The notes under the pieces were generated by a model. It was not told the DNA's origin. It was given only the letters and a program-made list of their open reading frames with translations, and ran no database searches. From a virus, in the IMG/VR virus record IMGVR_UViG_3300005613_000217, positions 1-35,290 of that record: 35,290 bases of DNA; one strand, 5' to 3'. The translations under genes were made by a program, and so were the position numbers. Below are positions 9,822 to 24,815 of this stretch, in pieces (the stretch's first letter is position 1; every line of letters starts with the position of its first letter).

Positions 9822-10193
9822 ATGGCATTTGTATTAAAGCAATCCAACACGTACACGTGGCCGATAGCATTAGTGTTGCCGGTTGATGGTGGCCGCCGCG
9901 ATAAGCACACCTTTGACGGTGAATTTAAGCGGTTGCCACAAACGCGGATTAATCAAATTGTAAGGTTAGCGCGTGCATCTGAACGTGGCCGCCTTAACGA
10001 TGATGAAGAATTGTTGGACCAAGATGCGGCTAAAGAGCTGCTTGCTGGATGGTCTGGCGTAGTAGATGATGACGGCAAGGAGATTCCATTTAGCGATAGT
10101 GCATTAGCGCAATTGCTAGAAATCCCAACAGTTGCTGGTCAAATTGTACGTGCTTGGTTTGAAAGCATTGATACGGCAAAACGAAAAAACTAA
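9822..10193 (+). CDS. Tail assembly chaperone, unshifted product (lambda G counterpart)
   Basis: The 123-residue protein lies between tail tube and tape measure genes, the place of lambda G. It contains a beta N-terminus (NTYTWPIALVLPVDGGRRDKH, FDGEFKRL) and helices ending with VAGQIVRAWFESIDTAKRKN, a common chaperone pattern. Its last codons are CGA AAA AAC then TAA, so A AAA AAC sits exactly in the slippery frame. A -1 shift there continues into the next frame. Such chaperones bind the tape measure during tail assembly and are usually not in the virion. Confidence 0.78.
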   Translation: MAFVLKQSNTYTWPIALVLPVDGGRRDKHTFDGEFKRLPQTRINQIVRLARASERGRLNDDEELLDQDAAKELLAGWSGVVDDDGKEIPFSDSALAQLLEIPTVAGQIVRAWFESIDTAKRKN

Positions 10194-19457: not shown

Positions 19458-19940
19458 ATGAAAACCAACGAACTAGCAGCGGATCTGCTGCACGAACTCT
19501 TCGAGTATCGAGAGGGTGAGCTGTACTGGAAGCAGCGTGGCAAAAGCCGTCAGATGGGCAAACCTGCTGGTGGCATCAATGGTGACGGCTATCGCCGCAT
19601 CAAAATCAACCGCAAGCTCTACGCCGTTCATCGCTTGGTATGGGTCATGCACGGCAATGATCCTGCTCCGTTTGTTGATCACATCAACGGTGATGTGCTG
19701 GATAACCGCATCGAAAACCTGCGGGCGGCTACCCATTCTCAGAACTGCATGAACCGCCGCCAACGTTCCGATAACAAGTCGGGCATCAAGGGCGTGATGC
19801 GGAAAAAGGACAAGTGGTATGGCTGTGTCACCCTGAATTACAAGGTGTATCCCGCTGGCTACTTTGATCGCAAGGAAGATGCAGCCGCTGCTGTTGACAA
19901 GCTCCGCAAGGAATTGCACGGAGAGTTTGCACGAAGCTAA
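19458..19940 (+). CDS. HNH endonuclease with AP2-like DNA-binding tail
   Basis: The 160-residue protein has the HNH_3 pattern YAVHRLVWVMHGNDPAPFVDHING, with D-H-I-N-G followed by DNRIENLRAATHSQN (about residues 45-97). Its C-terminus, SGIKGVMRKKDKWYGCVTLN then GYFDRKEDAAAAVDKL, is AP2-like. This domain pair is characteristic of free-standing homing endonucleases. It starts three bases after the fibre stop. The C-rich composition matches the fibre tip rather than the rest of the genome. It may have moved together with the fibre tip. It is unlikely to be essential. Confidence 0.85.
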   Translation: MKTNELAADLLHELFEYREGELYWKQRGKSRQMGKPAGGINGDGYRRIKINRKLYAVHRLVWVMHGNDPAPFVDHINGDVLDNRIENLRAATHSQNCMNRRQRSDNKSGIKGVMRKKDKWYGCVTLNYKVYPAGYFDRKEDAAAAVDKLRKELHGEFARS

Positions 19941-20437: not shown

Positions 20438-20677
20438 GTGATTGAAGTGTTTGCTGCTATCGCTGGTGCATCCATCAGCGTGGCTGCAATGGGGATATTT
20501 GGCTTTAGCCGTAGGAATGAAGAAGCCGCCGCTGCTGTAATACGCCTTACCAGTGCAGTTGAGCATATTGCTACATCGCTGGAGACATTGCACACGGATA
20601 TAAAAGAAACGAATCGCGAGATGTTTACCAGGTTGAATCACGTCGAAAACCGCGTTACTAAGCTTGAGGTGAAGTAA
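20438..20677 (+). CDS. Membrane-anchored coiled-coil protein (possible lysis factor)
   Basis: The 79-residue protein starts at GTG 20438. Residues 3-24 (EVFAAIAGASISVAAMGIFGF) form one membrane segment, followed by SRRNEEAAAAV and a long charged coiled coil ending NHVENRVTKLEVK. One N-terminal anchor with an extended helical tail fits small phage lysis-block proteins. Holin accessory or spanin-like roles are possible, but no family is certain. The next gene, another small membrane protein, starts 15 bases downstream. I regard the reading frame as real because its neighbours and pattern recur in cyanophages. Confidence 0.65.
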   Translation: MIEVFAAIAGASISVAAMGIFGFSRRNEEAAAAVIRLTSAVEHIATSLETLHTDIKETNREMFTRLNHVENRVTKLEVK

Positions 20678-20692
20678 GCAGTTAGACTGAGT

Positions 20693-20854
20693 GTGACGTT
20701 TACCACAGTTCCTGTGGACTTCCTATCCCATCCAGCTTTTTGGATTGTTGTTGCCGCAGCATCTGAGCTGATTGCGCTGTCACCACTAAAAAGCAACAGC
20801 ATTGTGCAGCTCGTGTTTCAGGTGCTGAACCTGTTGCGCGTAAAAAAGGGCTGA
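20693..20854 (+). CDS. Holin-like small membrane protein
   Basis: This frame, 53 residues from GTG 20693 to TGA 20852-20854, encodes MTFTTVPVDFLSHPAFWIVV and then a hydrophobic AAASELIALS, a short polar turn and SIVQLVFQVLNLLRVKKG. One or two membrane passes are plausible, and the basic end fits a cytoplasmic tail. It lies two genes before the endolysin, the usual place of a holin. The phrase PAFW...SELIALSPL...SNSIVQL resembles small proteins common in cyanophages. Its last codons, GTA AAA AAG GGC TGA, carry an in-frame slippery heptamer, so a longer product is likely. Confidence 0.65.
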   Translation: MTFTTVPVDFLSHPAFWIVVAAASELIALSPLKSNSIVQLVFQVLNLLRVKKG

Positions 20855-20883
20855 TCCGCTTTGGCAAGTCAGCTTGGGAGCGG
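20842..20883 (+). promoter_or_regulatory. Candidate -1 frameshift signal in the lysis block
   Basis: The heptamer A AAA AAG (20842-20848) is in the slippery register, one sense codon before the stop TGA. Seven bases later begins a stem: CCGCT at 20856-20860 pairs with AGCGG at 20879-20883, extended by two G-T pairs. Inside lies a second stem, CAAG (20865-20868) with CTTG (20873-20876). The arrangement parallels dnaX-type signals. Confidence 0.65.
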
Positions 20884-21090
20884 CGTTTAGAGCAAGCTAT
20901 CCGTCAATGGTGGTTTGAGAAAACGTTACCAGCCAAGCTGGATGCTGCCGAGGCTGAATGGCACAAGGCGCAACCGTTACCGCCGCCACCCATCGTGATA
21001 GAACACCCTATCAACGATGAATTACAGACTGGCGCCAGTCGTCTGTTAGGCGGTGAAATGTCCATCCATGCACCTTACAACCGCCAATGA
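20848..21090 (+). CDS. Frameshift-dependent extension of the holin-like protein
   Basis: In the -1 frame after the slippery heptamer there are 80 codons without a stop, ending at TGA 21088-21090, which overlaps the endolysin ATG as ATGA. The product contains IRFGKSAWERRLEQAIRQWW and a Pro-rich QPLPPPPIVIEHP region. The frame opens after a TGA at 20764-20766 and has no ATG, GTG or TTG until a late ATG at residue 71. Frameshifting would give a 132-residue fusion with a membrane N-terminus. The alternative is a CTG start at 20851, overlapping the stop as CTGA. Confidence 0.6.
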   Translation, partial: GLIRFGKSAWERRLEQAIRQWWFEKTLPAKLDAAEAEWHKAQPLPPPPIVIEHPINDELQTGASRLLGGEMSIHAPYNRQ

Positions 21091-22232
21091 ATTTCCTAGC
21101 AGCGGCAAAAGCTACAACCAAGCCACAGCCGTTGCCACATCAGCAGGCGGCATGGGGCTATGCCTGGGACTTATTGTCAATACAGGAGCAGCAGGAATTT
21201 CTAAGCAAATTCCGCAGTGACCCGGCGCCAAAACCTACATTGGCATGGGAGCCAGCCGCAAAATTAATACGCGAATTTGAAGGTTTTAGTGATGTAGCAT
21301 ACATTTGTCCTGCCGGTGTGCCAACCATCGGCTGGGGCACCACTAGATGGCCTGATGGCGCAGCAGTAAAAATTGGCGATACCATCACACGCGATGCTGC
21401 TGATGGGTTGCTCGATAACATGCTGGAAACTCAAGTTGTACCAGCACTAGCTAAAAGTATTCCAGGCTGGAAAACATTATCAGCGCAGAGGCAAAATGCG
21501 TTGATTTCGTTTGCCTATAACGTAGGTTGGCATTTCTACGGCAGCGAGGGGTTCGAGACAATATCTAAGGCATTACACGCGGCAAACTATGACGCAGTGC
21601 CAGCGGCATTGATGCTATATGTAAACGCTGGCACACCGGCAGAACCTGGCCTCCGCCGCCGCCGGGAAGCTGAGGCAAAACTCTGGGGCATACCAGCTAA
21701 AGCCACATCAGTGCTGCTGAAAGTGCCCTATGAATACCAAAATGACAACGTTTCCGGCACCGGTTACCGCGAGTGTTTCAGCAGCAGTTGCGCAATGATT
21801 GCCCGCTACCACGGCAAGGTAAAAAACGATGATGAATACAATAAAGTACGAGCCAAATTCGGCGATACCACCGACGCACAGGCGCAGGTGCTTGCATTAC
21901 GGGCACTAGGACTCACAAATTCAAGGTTTGTGACGAATTGCGCACCTGGCCTACTGGAGGCGGAGTTACGCCAGGGCAGGCCAGTGGCGGTGGGATGGTT
22001 ACATCAAGGGCCATACAACGCACCAACTGGTGGCGGCCACTGGTCTGTAATCATCGGCTTTGATCCAGATTATTGGTTTGTCAATGACCCCAACGGTGAG
22101 GCTGATTTGGTAAACGGTGGCTACGAAAATCACACCAAAGGTGCAGGCGTTAAATACAGCAAGCAGCGCTTCAATAGGCGCTGGGAAGTTGATGGCGCAT
22201 CTACCGGCTGGGCGCTGTTGGTGAAGCCATGA
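21087..22232 (+). CDS. Modular endolysin: GH24 lysozyme plus C39-like peptidase domain
   Basis: The 381-residue protein has two enzyme-like domains. Residues about 57-203 match T4-type lysozyme: E65 in IREFEGF is the likely acid, with TIGWGTT at about 80-86 and RRREAEAKLW closing the domain; it would cut glycan strands. Residues about 213-381 resemble a papain-like C39 peptidase, with C230 in ECFSSSCAM, H318 in GGGHWSVIIGF and D334 in VNDPNG as the probable triad. The second domain may cut cross-links or act on the virion. It starts by ATGA overlap with the frameshift frame and ends overlapping the phosphoesterase. Confidence 0.85.
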   Translation: MNFLAAAKATTKPQPLPHQQAAWGYAWDLLSIQEQQEFLSKFRSDPAPKPTLAWEPAAKLIREFEGFSDVAYICPAGVPTIGWGTTRWPDGAAVKIGDTITRDAADGLLDNMLETQVVPALAKSIPGWKTLSAQRQNALISFAYNVGWHFYGSEGFETISKALHAANYDAVPAALMLYVNAGTPAEPGLRRRREAEAKLWGIPAKATSVLLKVPYEYQNDNVSGTGYRECFSSSCAMIARYHGKVKNDDEYNKVRAKFGDTTDAQAQVLALRALGLTNSRFVTNCAPGLLEAELRQGRPVAVGWLHQGPYNAPTGGGHWSVIIGFDPDYWFVNDPNGEADLVNGGYENHTKGAGVKYSKQRFNRRWEVDGASTGWALLVKP

Positions 22233-23752: not shown

Positions 23753-23980
23753 ATGGTGGTGCAGCTCAGTCTAGAGGAGCAGCTAGCACTTGAAGGCCAG
23801 AGCAGAATTGCCTTAAACTGCCCTGACCGTGAACAGGTTGCTAAATTATGTAGTACCTTAATAAAACAAAACGCACATCAATCTAAATTAATAAAGCAAG
23901 CCGTACATCATATAGCAGCTTTAGAAGCTACTTTATATCTTCAACAATCAAAGCGCCCGTGGTGGAGACGTGCGATTTAG
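23753..23980 (+). CDS. Small helical protein, possible NblA-like phycobilisome factor
   Basis: The frame gives 75 residues from ATG 23753; GTG 23738, ATG 23741/23744 and GTG 23756 are other starts. The N-terminus VVQLSLEEQLALEGQSR, a loop near NCPDR and then a helix with EQVAKLCSTLIKQNAHQSKL follow the layout of NblA, whose first helix begins LSLEQQF and whose second contains a QA--FL--LY-Q pattern. NblA triggers degradation of cyanobacterial light-harvesting phycobilisomes and is known in some cyanophages. The match is by eye and modest; a plain helical protein is possible. The 3' end overlaps the sigma factor end on the other strand by 53 bp. Confidence 0.5.
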   Translation: MVVQLSLEEQLALEGQSRIALNCPDREQVAKLCSTLIKQNAHQSKLIKQAVHHIAALEATLYLQQSKRPWWRRAI

Positions 23981-24815
23981 ACATTAATTTACTTAATCTA
24001 CGATGAGTTCTTGCCATGCGTTGCCTTATACGCTCGCGGCATACATTATGCTCCTTTGCAATAGCTGTTAAAGTTAAATCTTCATGGTAACGTTTATTTA
24101 TTAAATCTTGCTCCATATCAGTTAAATAAGATAGCGCAAGCTGCACTTGTTCCTTGCTATGGTCCAAATCAAAATCAATATCCACTTCAGGGCTAGCAAT
24201 TAAATCAAGCAGTGAATTGCCATCATCTGTTACCAGTTCATCCAGGCTGATATGAATGCTATTGCAATCAACTAATGCTAGCAATTGTTCTATTGTTAAA
24301 CCCATAACCTCTGCCAATTCTGTTTTGCTTGGTTTGCGGCCATGTTCTTTCATAAATTCAATTTCAACTTGCAGCGCCTTAAATATTCTGTCTATCATAT
24401 GTATCGGGATTTTTATCATGCGCTCCTTGCTATCAATAGCACGTTTCAGTGATTGCCTTATCCACCAATAGGCATAAGTTGAAAACTTATACCCTCGTGA
24501 CGCATCAAACTTTTCTGCTGCACGTTGAAGGCCAATGTTACCCTCTTGGCATAAATCCAACATATCCATTGATTTAATTCTGCCTGTATACCGCTTGGCG
24601 ATATGTACAACCAAACGTAAATTACAGTTGACCATGGTAGCCCGCGCCTTAAGGCCAGCTTTTATCAGCCGTTGCTCAGCAGGTGTTGGGCTAGGGTTAT
24701 CGCGCAGCTCCATGTACTGCGCGATTTTACGTGCTAACTGTATCTCCTGCTGTGTCGTGAGCAACGGATACCTAGAGATGGCCTCTAGGTAATCCCGCAT
24801 TGCATCAGCAGTCAT
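23928..24815 (-). CDS. RNA polymerase sigma-70 family factor (cyanobacterial RpoD-like)
   Basis: The 295-residue protein contains the full core set. An N-terminal region 1.2-like segment reads DAMRDYLEAISRYPLLTTQQEIQLARKIA. Region 2 (about 60-128) includes NLRLVVHIAKRYTG, DLCQEGNIGLQRAAEKFD and the -10-binding GYKFSTYAYWWIRQS. Region 3 (about 135-200) contains KIPIHMID. Region 4 (about 225-285) carries the HTH TLTAIAKEHNVCRERIRQRM. The style matches cyanobacterial group 1/2 factors. It starts three bases after the SSB stop and ends the leftward block, so it may be made early and redirect polymerase to other phage promoters. Confidence 0.92.
   Translation of the reverse strand: MTADAMRDYLEAISRYPLLTTQQEIQLARKIAQYMELRDNPSPTPAEQRLIKAGLKARATMVNCNLRLVVHIAKRYTGRIKSMDMLDLCQEGNIGLQRAAEKFDASRGYKFSTYAYWWIRQSLKRAIDSKERMIKIPIHMIDRIFKALQVEIEFMKEHGRKPSKTELAEVMGLTIEQLLALVDCNSIHISLDELVTDDGNSLLDLIASPEVDIDFDLDHSKEQVQLALSYLTDMEQDLINKRYHEDLTLTAIAKEHNVCRERIRQRMARTHRRLSKLMSKSHVSTTGALIVEDIK

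Follow-up and report, generated by a model that had tools for sequence, protein, structure and literature searches.

A putative programmed −1 frameshift extends a small holin-like membrane protein in cyanophage lysis cassettes

Recoding by a −1 shift that adds a C-terminal extension to a protein is an established phenomenon, most familiar from tail genes; in double-stranded DNA phages, the best-known cases of recoding involve tail and capsid genes. In the G/GT pair of phage lambda (heptamer G_GGA_AAG) and its relatives in other double-stranded DNA phages, slippage on an X_XXY_YYZ heptamer near a stop codon yields a minor, C-terminally extended product, and this arrangement is conserved across diverged phages. 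Escherichia coli dnaX uses A_AAA_AAG to make two C-terminal forms of one protein; there the shift shortens the protein, and an upstream Shine-Dalgarno (SD) sequence and a stem-loop are used. Such stimulators (a downstream structure or an upstream SD) are usual at −1 sites but optional and not defining, and A_AAA_AAG is able to shift without strong ones. For lysis genes, translation of L in phage MS2 is coupled to termination of the coat gene and was earlier reported to be frameshift dependent (references cited in PMC5009743).

Here, we describe a −1 frameshift site in the cyanophage lysis cassette, which the comparative evidence below makes very probable. The window, 35,290 bases long, is a complete IMG/VR virus record. 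Its virus is kin to the cyanosiphoviruses S-CBS1 and S-CBS3, with a terminase 48% identical to theirs. The features of the cassette are listed in Table 1. The small membrane/coiled-coil gene at its upstream end belongs to this cassette in S-CBS3, S-CBS1, and KBS-S-2A as well. Comparison of plain DNA similarity with phage records gave no useful match across the gene pair, and a search of genome contigs returned a single contig, from a metagenome-assembled genome (L107).

Table 1. Features of the lysis cassette, in positions of the window
Feature	Position	Strand	Remarks
Upstream small membrane/coiled-coil protein	20438..20677	+	PHROG 26178
0-frame holin-like ORF	20693..20854	+	PHROG 22542, unknown function; likelier start GTG 20714
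Slippery heptamer A_AAA_AAG	20842..20848	+	Canonical heptamer in 300/302 distinct relatives
0-frame stop TGA	20852..20854	+	One codon past the heptamer
−1 frame extension, 80 residues + stop	20848..21090	+	dN/dS 0.14; AlphaFold2 model
Stem CCGCT/AGCGG	20856..20883	+	Complementarity only; conserved stimulator role unsupported
ATGA overlap, extension stop (TGA 21088-21090)/endolysin start (ATG 21087)	21087..21090	+	No upstream SD, dG +1.5
Endolysin, phage lysozyme + C39-like peptidase domains	21087..22232	+	381 aa

The holin-like ORF ends with GTA AAA AAG GGC TGA, and the heptamer is therefore in the slippery register, as the initial annotation had recognized. Its reading of the −1 frame, open for 80 codons as far as the overlap with the endolysin start, was also correct. 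The two products had been given as 53 and 132 residues. These lengths hold for a start at GTG 20693; however, GTG 20714 is the likelier start because relatives begin with (M/V)DFLSHP, and the products would then have 46 and 125 aa.

Relatives were collected in several searches. Searching with the holin-like protein gave 272 loci, corresponding to 148 distinct ones, 130 of which have a complete −1 extension. The heptamer is A_AAA_AAG in 128 of these, G_GGA_AAG in one (isolate S-EIVl), and A_AAG_AAG in one (L011/L013). A second search used the extension, so that the set was chosen independently of the upstream gene. Among its 130 distinct loci, 129 have an in-register A_AAA_AAG just ahead of the 0-frame stop (L345 was checked by eye); the single exception is L301, with G_AAA_AAG. 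Further searches, seeded with S-EIVl and then with another clade, uncovered heptamer variants. Over all 302 distinct loci with a complete extension, which span cyanosiphoviruses and T7-like cyanopodoviruses, a canonical heptamer lies zero or one codon ahead of the 0-frame stop in 300 (A_AAA_AAG in 221, C_CCA_AAG in 63, G_GGA_AAG in 15, and A_AAA_AAC in 1). The spacing is one codon in 289 and zero in 11. For comparison, NNA AAA AAG is expected by chance in 6.7% of X-Lys-Lys triplets at the codon usage of the window. Isolates with both heptamer and extension include S-CBS3, S-CBS1, KBS-S-2A, S-EIVl, and the T7-like S-B28, 7B11-B, and WH11-B. For the two distinct loci with an intact extension and no canonical heptamer (L011/L013 and L301/L470, the latter with G_AAA_AAG), assembly variation, a weak shift site, and early loss are all possible explanations.

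The sequence of the heptamer switches by lineage, and its geometry stays constant. G_GGA_AAG is typical of the S-EIVl clade (0-frame proteins ending in ..KPGKR) and C_CCA_AAG of a clade ending in ..FPKR; A_AAA_AAC is present in L468, and A_AAA_AAG is back again in L575 and L580, relatives of the C clade. Third-base entropy at the slip-site codons is 0.07, 0.07, and 0, compared to 0.7 to 1.9 elsewhere in the ORF, and the amino acid preceding the slip codons varies freely. We mapped changes in the codon ahead of the slip codons onto a FastTree tree built from the upstream protein: the first two bases of this codon changed at least 50 times, and the third, with which the heptamer begins, changed 7 times. 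Repeated swaps of shift-prone heptamers at constant geometry provide unusually clear natural evidence of tandem slippage. They also bear out the proposal of the initial annotation that a programmed −1 frameshift links the two frames.

A natural negative control is provided by 11 relatives of the uncultured phage MedDCM-OCT-S37-C6 that lack the extension. They keep Pro-Lys-Lys, spelled CCA AAG AAA or CCA AAG AAG, and none has the heptamer (0/11 versus 129/130 with the extension; Fisher P = 1.6e-15, a statistic that ignores relatedness). In the distant T7-like phages P60, S-CBP1, S-SRP01, and DSL-LC07, a longer 0-frame tail is found, with neither heptamer nor extension.

The extension varies in length from 37 to 101 codons among the 302 loci, and the length differences keep the −1 frame. 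Its median pairwise dN/dS in that frame is 0.14 (685 pairs), that of the 0 frame is 0.09 (2926 pairs), and substitutions concentrate at the third positions of each respective frame. These values indicate purifying selection on the extension in the −1 frame. The extension also contains a conserved C-terminal motif ending in [AS]-P-W/Y. Such conservation as a protein argues against a real but purely regulatory frameshift, in which no ribosomes but those that slip would arrive at the endolysin start, the slip frequency would set the endolysin dose, and the fused peptide would be of little weight. That reading draws on gene order, since 256 of the 302 loci have a gene of at least 120 aa that starts within −45 to +25 of the extension stop; on the lack of an SD at the window endolysin; and on phage MS2, for which termination-reinitiation control of the lysis gene is known (reference cited in PMC5009743). 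However, other genes of the cassette lack an SD as well, and the next gene of the T7-like relatives is not an endolysin gene, so that endolysin coupling cannot be the general purpose of the shift. We consider the purely regulatory reading unlikely. Endolysin coupling itself is plausible: given this gene order and the lack of an SD at the window endolysin, slipping ribosomes could reinitiate there.

The extension could also be a separate gene, translated from an internal noncanonical or upstream start or by reinitiation past the 0-frame stop. Gp22 of S-CBS3 (L100, NC_015465.1, 19160-19327) is annotated in this manner from an ATG that lies inside the extension domain, an annotation that the present comparison would correct, and many loci have a CTG early in the −1 frame. 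In 41 of 130 loci, however, this codon is CTA, TTA, or GTA. At the junction, none of the 130 loci identified by the extension has an ATG or GTG in frame with it; any ATG, GTG, or TTG occurs near the junction in 42 of 302, and no start codon of the extension is conserved across relatives. The statement that the window has no −1 start codon before residue 71 was mistaken; a GTG (20995-20997) is in frame in the middle of the conserved domain. The initial annotation had also named a homologue with a clear ATG for the second frame as evidence against frameshifting. One was encountered, in S-CRES1, with a membrane-like N-terminal helix of its own and without the heptamer; it fits an alternative arrangement of the same parts and does not contradict the frameshift. 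The exchange of heptamer types is left unexplained by a separate gene, which we judge to be highly improbable.

Very little probability likewise falls to slippage of RNA polymerase on the A6 run, by which an added base would create mixed mRNAs for both frames. RNA polymerase slippage requires homopolymer runs. An A6 run is present in most loci, and some have A7 or more (S-CBS1, L459), but the C_CCA_AAG (63) and G_GGA_AAG (15) sites contain no run longer than 3 in the heptamer. Moreover, the second slip codon is AAG in 297 of 298 loci, ending the run in G although the synonymous AAA would lengthen it. Thus, heptamer and third-base conservation, selection in the −1 frame, and the lack of a conserved start make both internal initiation and polymerase slippage unlikely. 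A decayed or misassembled fusion gene, that is, a sequencing or evolutionary frameshift in a former single ORF, would be permitted by a lone contig but has a negligible chance: 302 distinct loci, from many samples and isolate genomes, share one frame relation, both frames are under purifying selection, and no in-frame fused homologue was seen among the relatives.

Potential stimulators of the −1 shift were analyzed on both sides of the heptamer. The initial annotation had pointed to a stem downstream. Its CCGCT/AGCGG complementarity is real, but the stem is no better than in shuffled sequence (z +0.09), and all five pairs are intact in only 4 of 31 close relatives. Directly 3′ of the heptamer, no consensus fold was detected in the groups tested, including those with C and G heptamers, and in the two large groups the downstream folding z was no lower than in a control region 120 nucleotides (nt) further on. 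On these grounds, a downstream stem or pseudoknot was rejected as the stimulator. Thus, of the features for which a comparison of homologues had been proposed beforehand, the heptamer is kept and second-frame starts are absent, but the stem is not kept. An upstream SD was rejected as a general stimulator, being absent in the A and G groups. The C_CCA_AAG clade (L491, L494, L509-L511, and most of L512-L591) does contain an SD-like sequence 3 to 20 bases 5′ of the slip site, with a median pairing dG of −3.9 versus −1.5 in control stretches, and this is possibly a clade-specific stimulator. Rfam gave no match.

The hairpin and the extension were modeled separately with AlphaFold2. The 0-frame protein is predicted to be a helical hairpin (H14-29/H36-51, pLDDT 75) whose first helix is hydrophobic, with a mean hydropathy of 1.65 over residues 14 to 32 (2.41 in L494). 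In the model of the extension (pLDDT 85), a helix of 32 residues is followed by a Pro-rich linker and a beta motif at the C-terminus. As expected for a holin, the 0-frame protein is small, has one or more membrane helices, and is followed by an endolysin gene. It has no Pfam match to a known holin family and, like the extension, falls only into families of unknown function in PHROGs and Pfam. Searches of the PDB by sequence or fold with the extension as the query found nothing. We infer holin identity and a role in lysis timing from position and size.

Two phages carry a sequence similar to the end of the extension on a membrane segment of its own. In S-CAM7, an LGGxMRLRxPW-like C-terminal stretch follows a transmembrane segment in gp243, which is encoded close to lysin genes. 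Another is found in S-CRES1 gp104, which has its own ATG and a hydrophobic N-terminus and adjoins gp105, a homologue of the 0-frame protein; the two parts are thus separate neighboring genes there, and the heptamer is missing. The domain homology in both phages is suggested by these short C-terminal stretches. Tethering is the simplest reading: the extension would need to be kept at the membrane, with the frameshift supplying its anchor in most of these cyanophages. We give this reading about even odds.

We propose that ribosomes on the holin-like gene would decode the tandem codons of A_AAA_AAG just ahead of the stop. A fraction would slip back one base and read 80 more codons, giving the C-terminally extended protein, and the remaining ribosomes would terminate, giving the hairpin of 46 to 53 aa. 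The extension would be a soluble domain that is active when tethered to the membrane. Frameshifting would provide the tether and set how much free hairpin is made relative to the tethered domain, and the slipping ribosomes, which would finish on the endolysin start, may feed endolysin translation. The account as a whole, frameshift plus functional steps, is likely; we put it no higher because we infer the functional steps. Sequence comparison establishes the heptamer, the frame relation, and the selection on both frames, whereas production of the fusion, its ratio to the hairpin, membrane topology, the lysis role, and endolysin coupling are predictions. A more tentative possibility is that the slip frequency controls lysis by balancing three products: the hairpin as a holin, the tethered domain in a spanin- or antiholin-like role, and ribosomes delivered to the endolysin start.

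Compared to lambda G/GT, the proposed site lies in a small membrane protein of the lysis cassette, joins it to an unrelated extension domain, and uses three heptamers that turn over. Unlike in dnaX, the shift would lengthen the protein, and neither stimulator is conserved. As in MS2, a lysis function would be located 3′ of a termination or shift event; however, MS2 L is a separate, reinitiated ORF, whereas here the lysis-cassette protein itself would be lengthened by the slip. In S-B28, the 0-frame gene is located between the tail fiber and terminase small subunit genes, the position of gene 17.5 in T7. A membrane segment followed by a periplasmic-type helix would be reminiscent of an i-spanin; the hairpin and the 32-residue helix come from separate predicted models, and the basic C-terminus of the hairpin could be cytoplasmic. 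Unlike T7 holin and spanins, the proteins match no named holin or spanin family, and the coding strand of the cassette contains no plausible lipobox ORF for an Rz1-like outer-membrane lipoprotein partner. The window also has a −1 site of the tail-assembly chaperone type: an ORF at 9822-10193 ends in A_AAA_AAC TAA (heptamer at 10184-10190), and its −1 frame reaches 10552, overlapping the start of the tape-measure gene.

Our searches of the open-access literature turned up no account of frameshifting in a cyanophage lysis gene. A conserved lysis-cassette −1 site with exchange of heptamer types would be a known kind of event in a new place, shared by cyanophages with two or more body plans. Present annotations omit the extension in 7B11-B, S-B28, WH11-B, and KBS-S-2A, and they omit the 0-frame gene in S-B28 and S-EIVl. 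The conserved extension domain is missed by present databases, and both parts are candidates for poorly known lysis functions in phages of abundant photosynthetic bacteria.

Other genes in the window were noted. An HNH_3 endonuclease gene, possibly encoding a homing endonuclease, is located just 5′ of the lysis cassette (19458-19940). A sigma-70 factor with regions 1.2, 2, 3, and 4 is encoded on the minus strand (23928-24815) and is likewise annotated in S-CBS1 and KBS-S-2A. Outside the cyanophages above, an unannotated homologue of the holin-like protein was detected in the Microviridae genome SD_MC_44 (L433, MH572431.1; 2861-2983; about 50% identity over 43 residues, E 5e-4). It lies between the scaffold and replication genes, has no extension, and is a candidate lysis gene for a group in which few are known.
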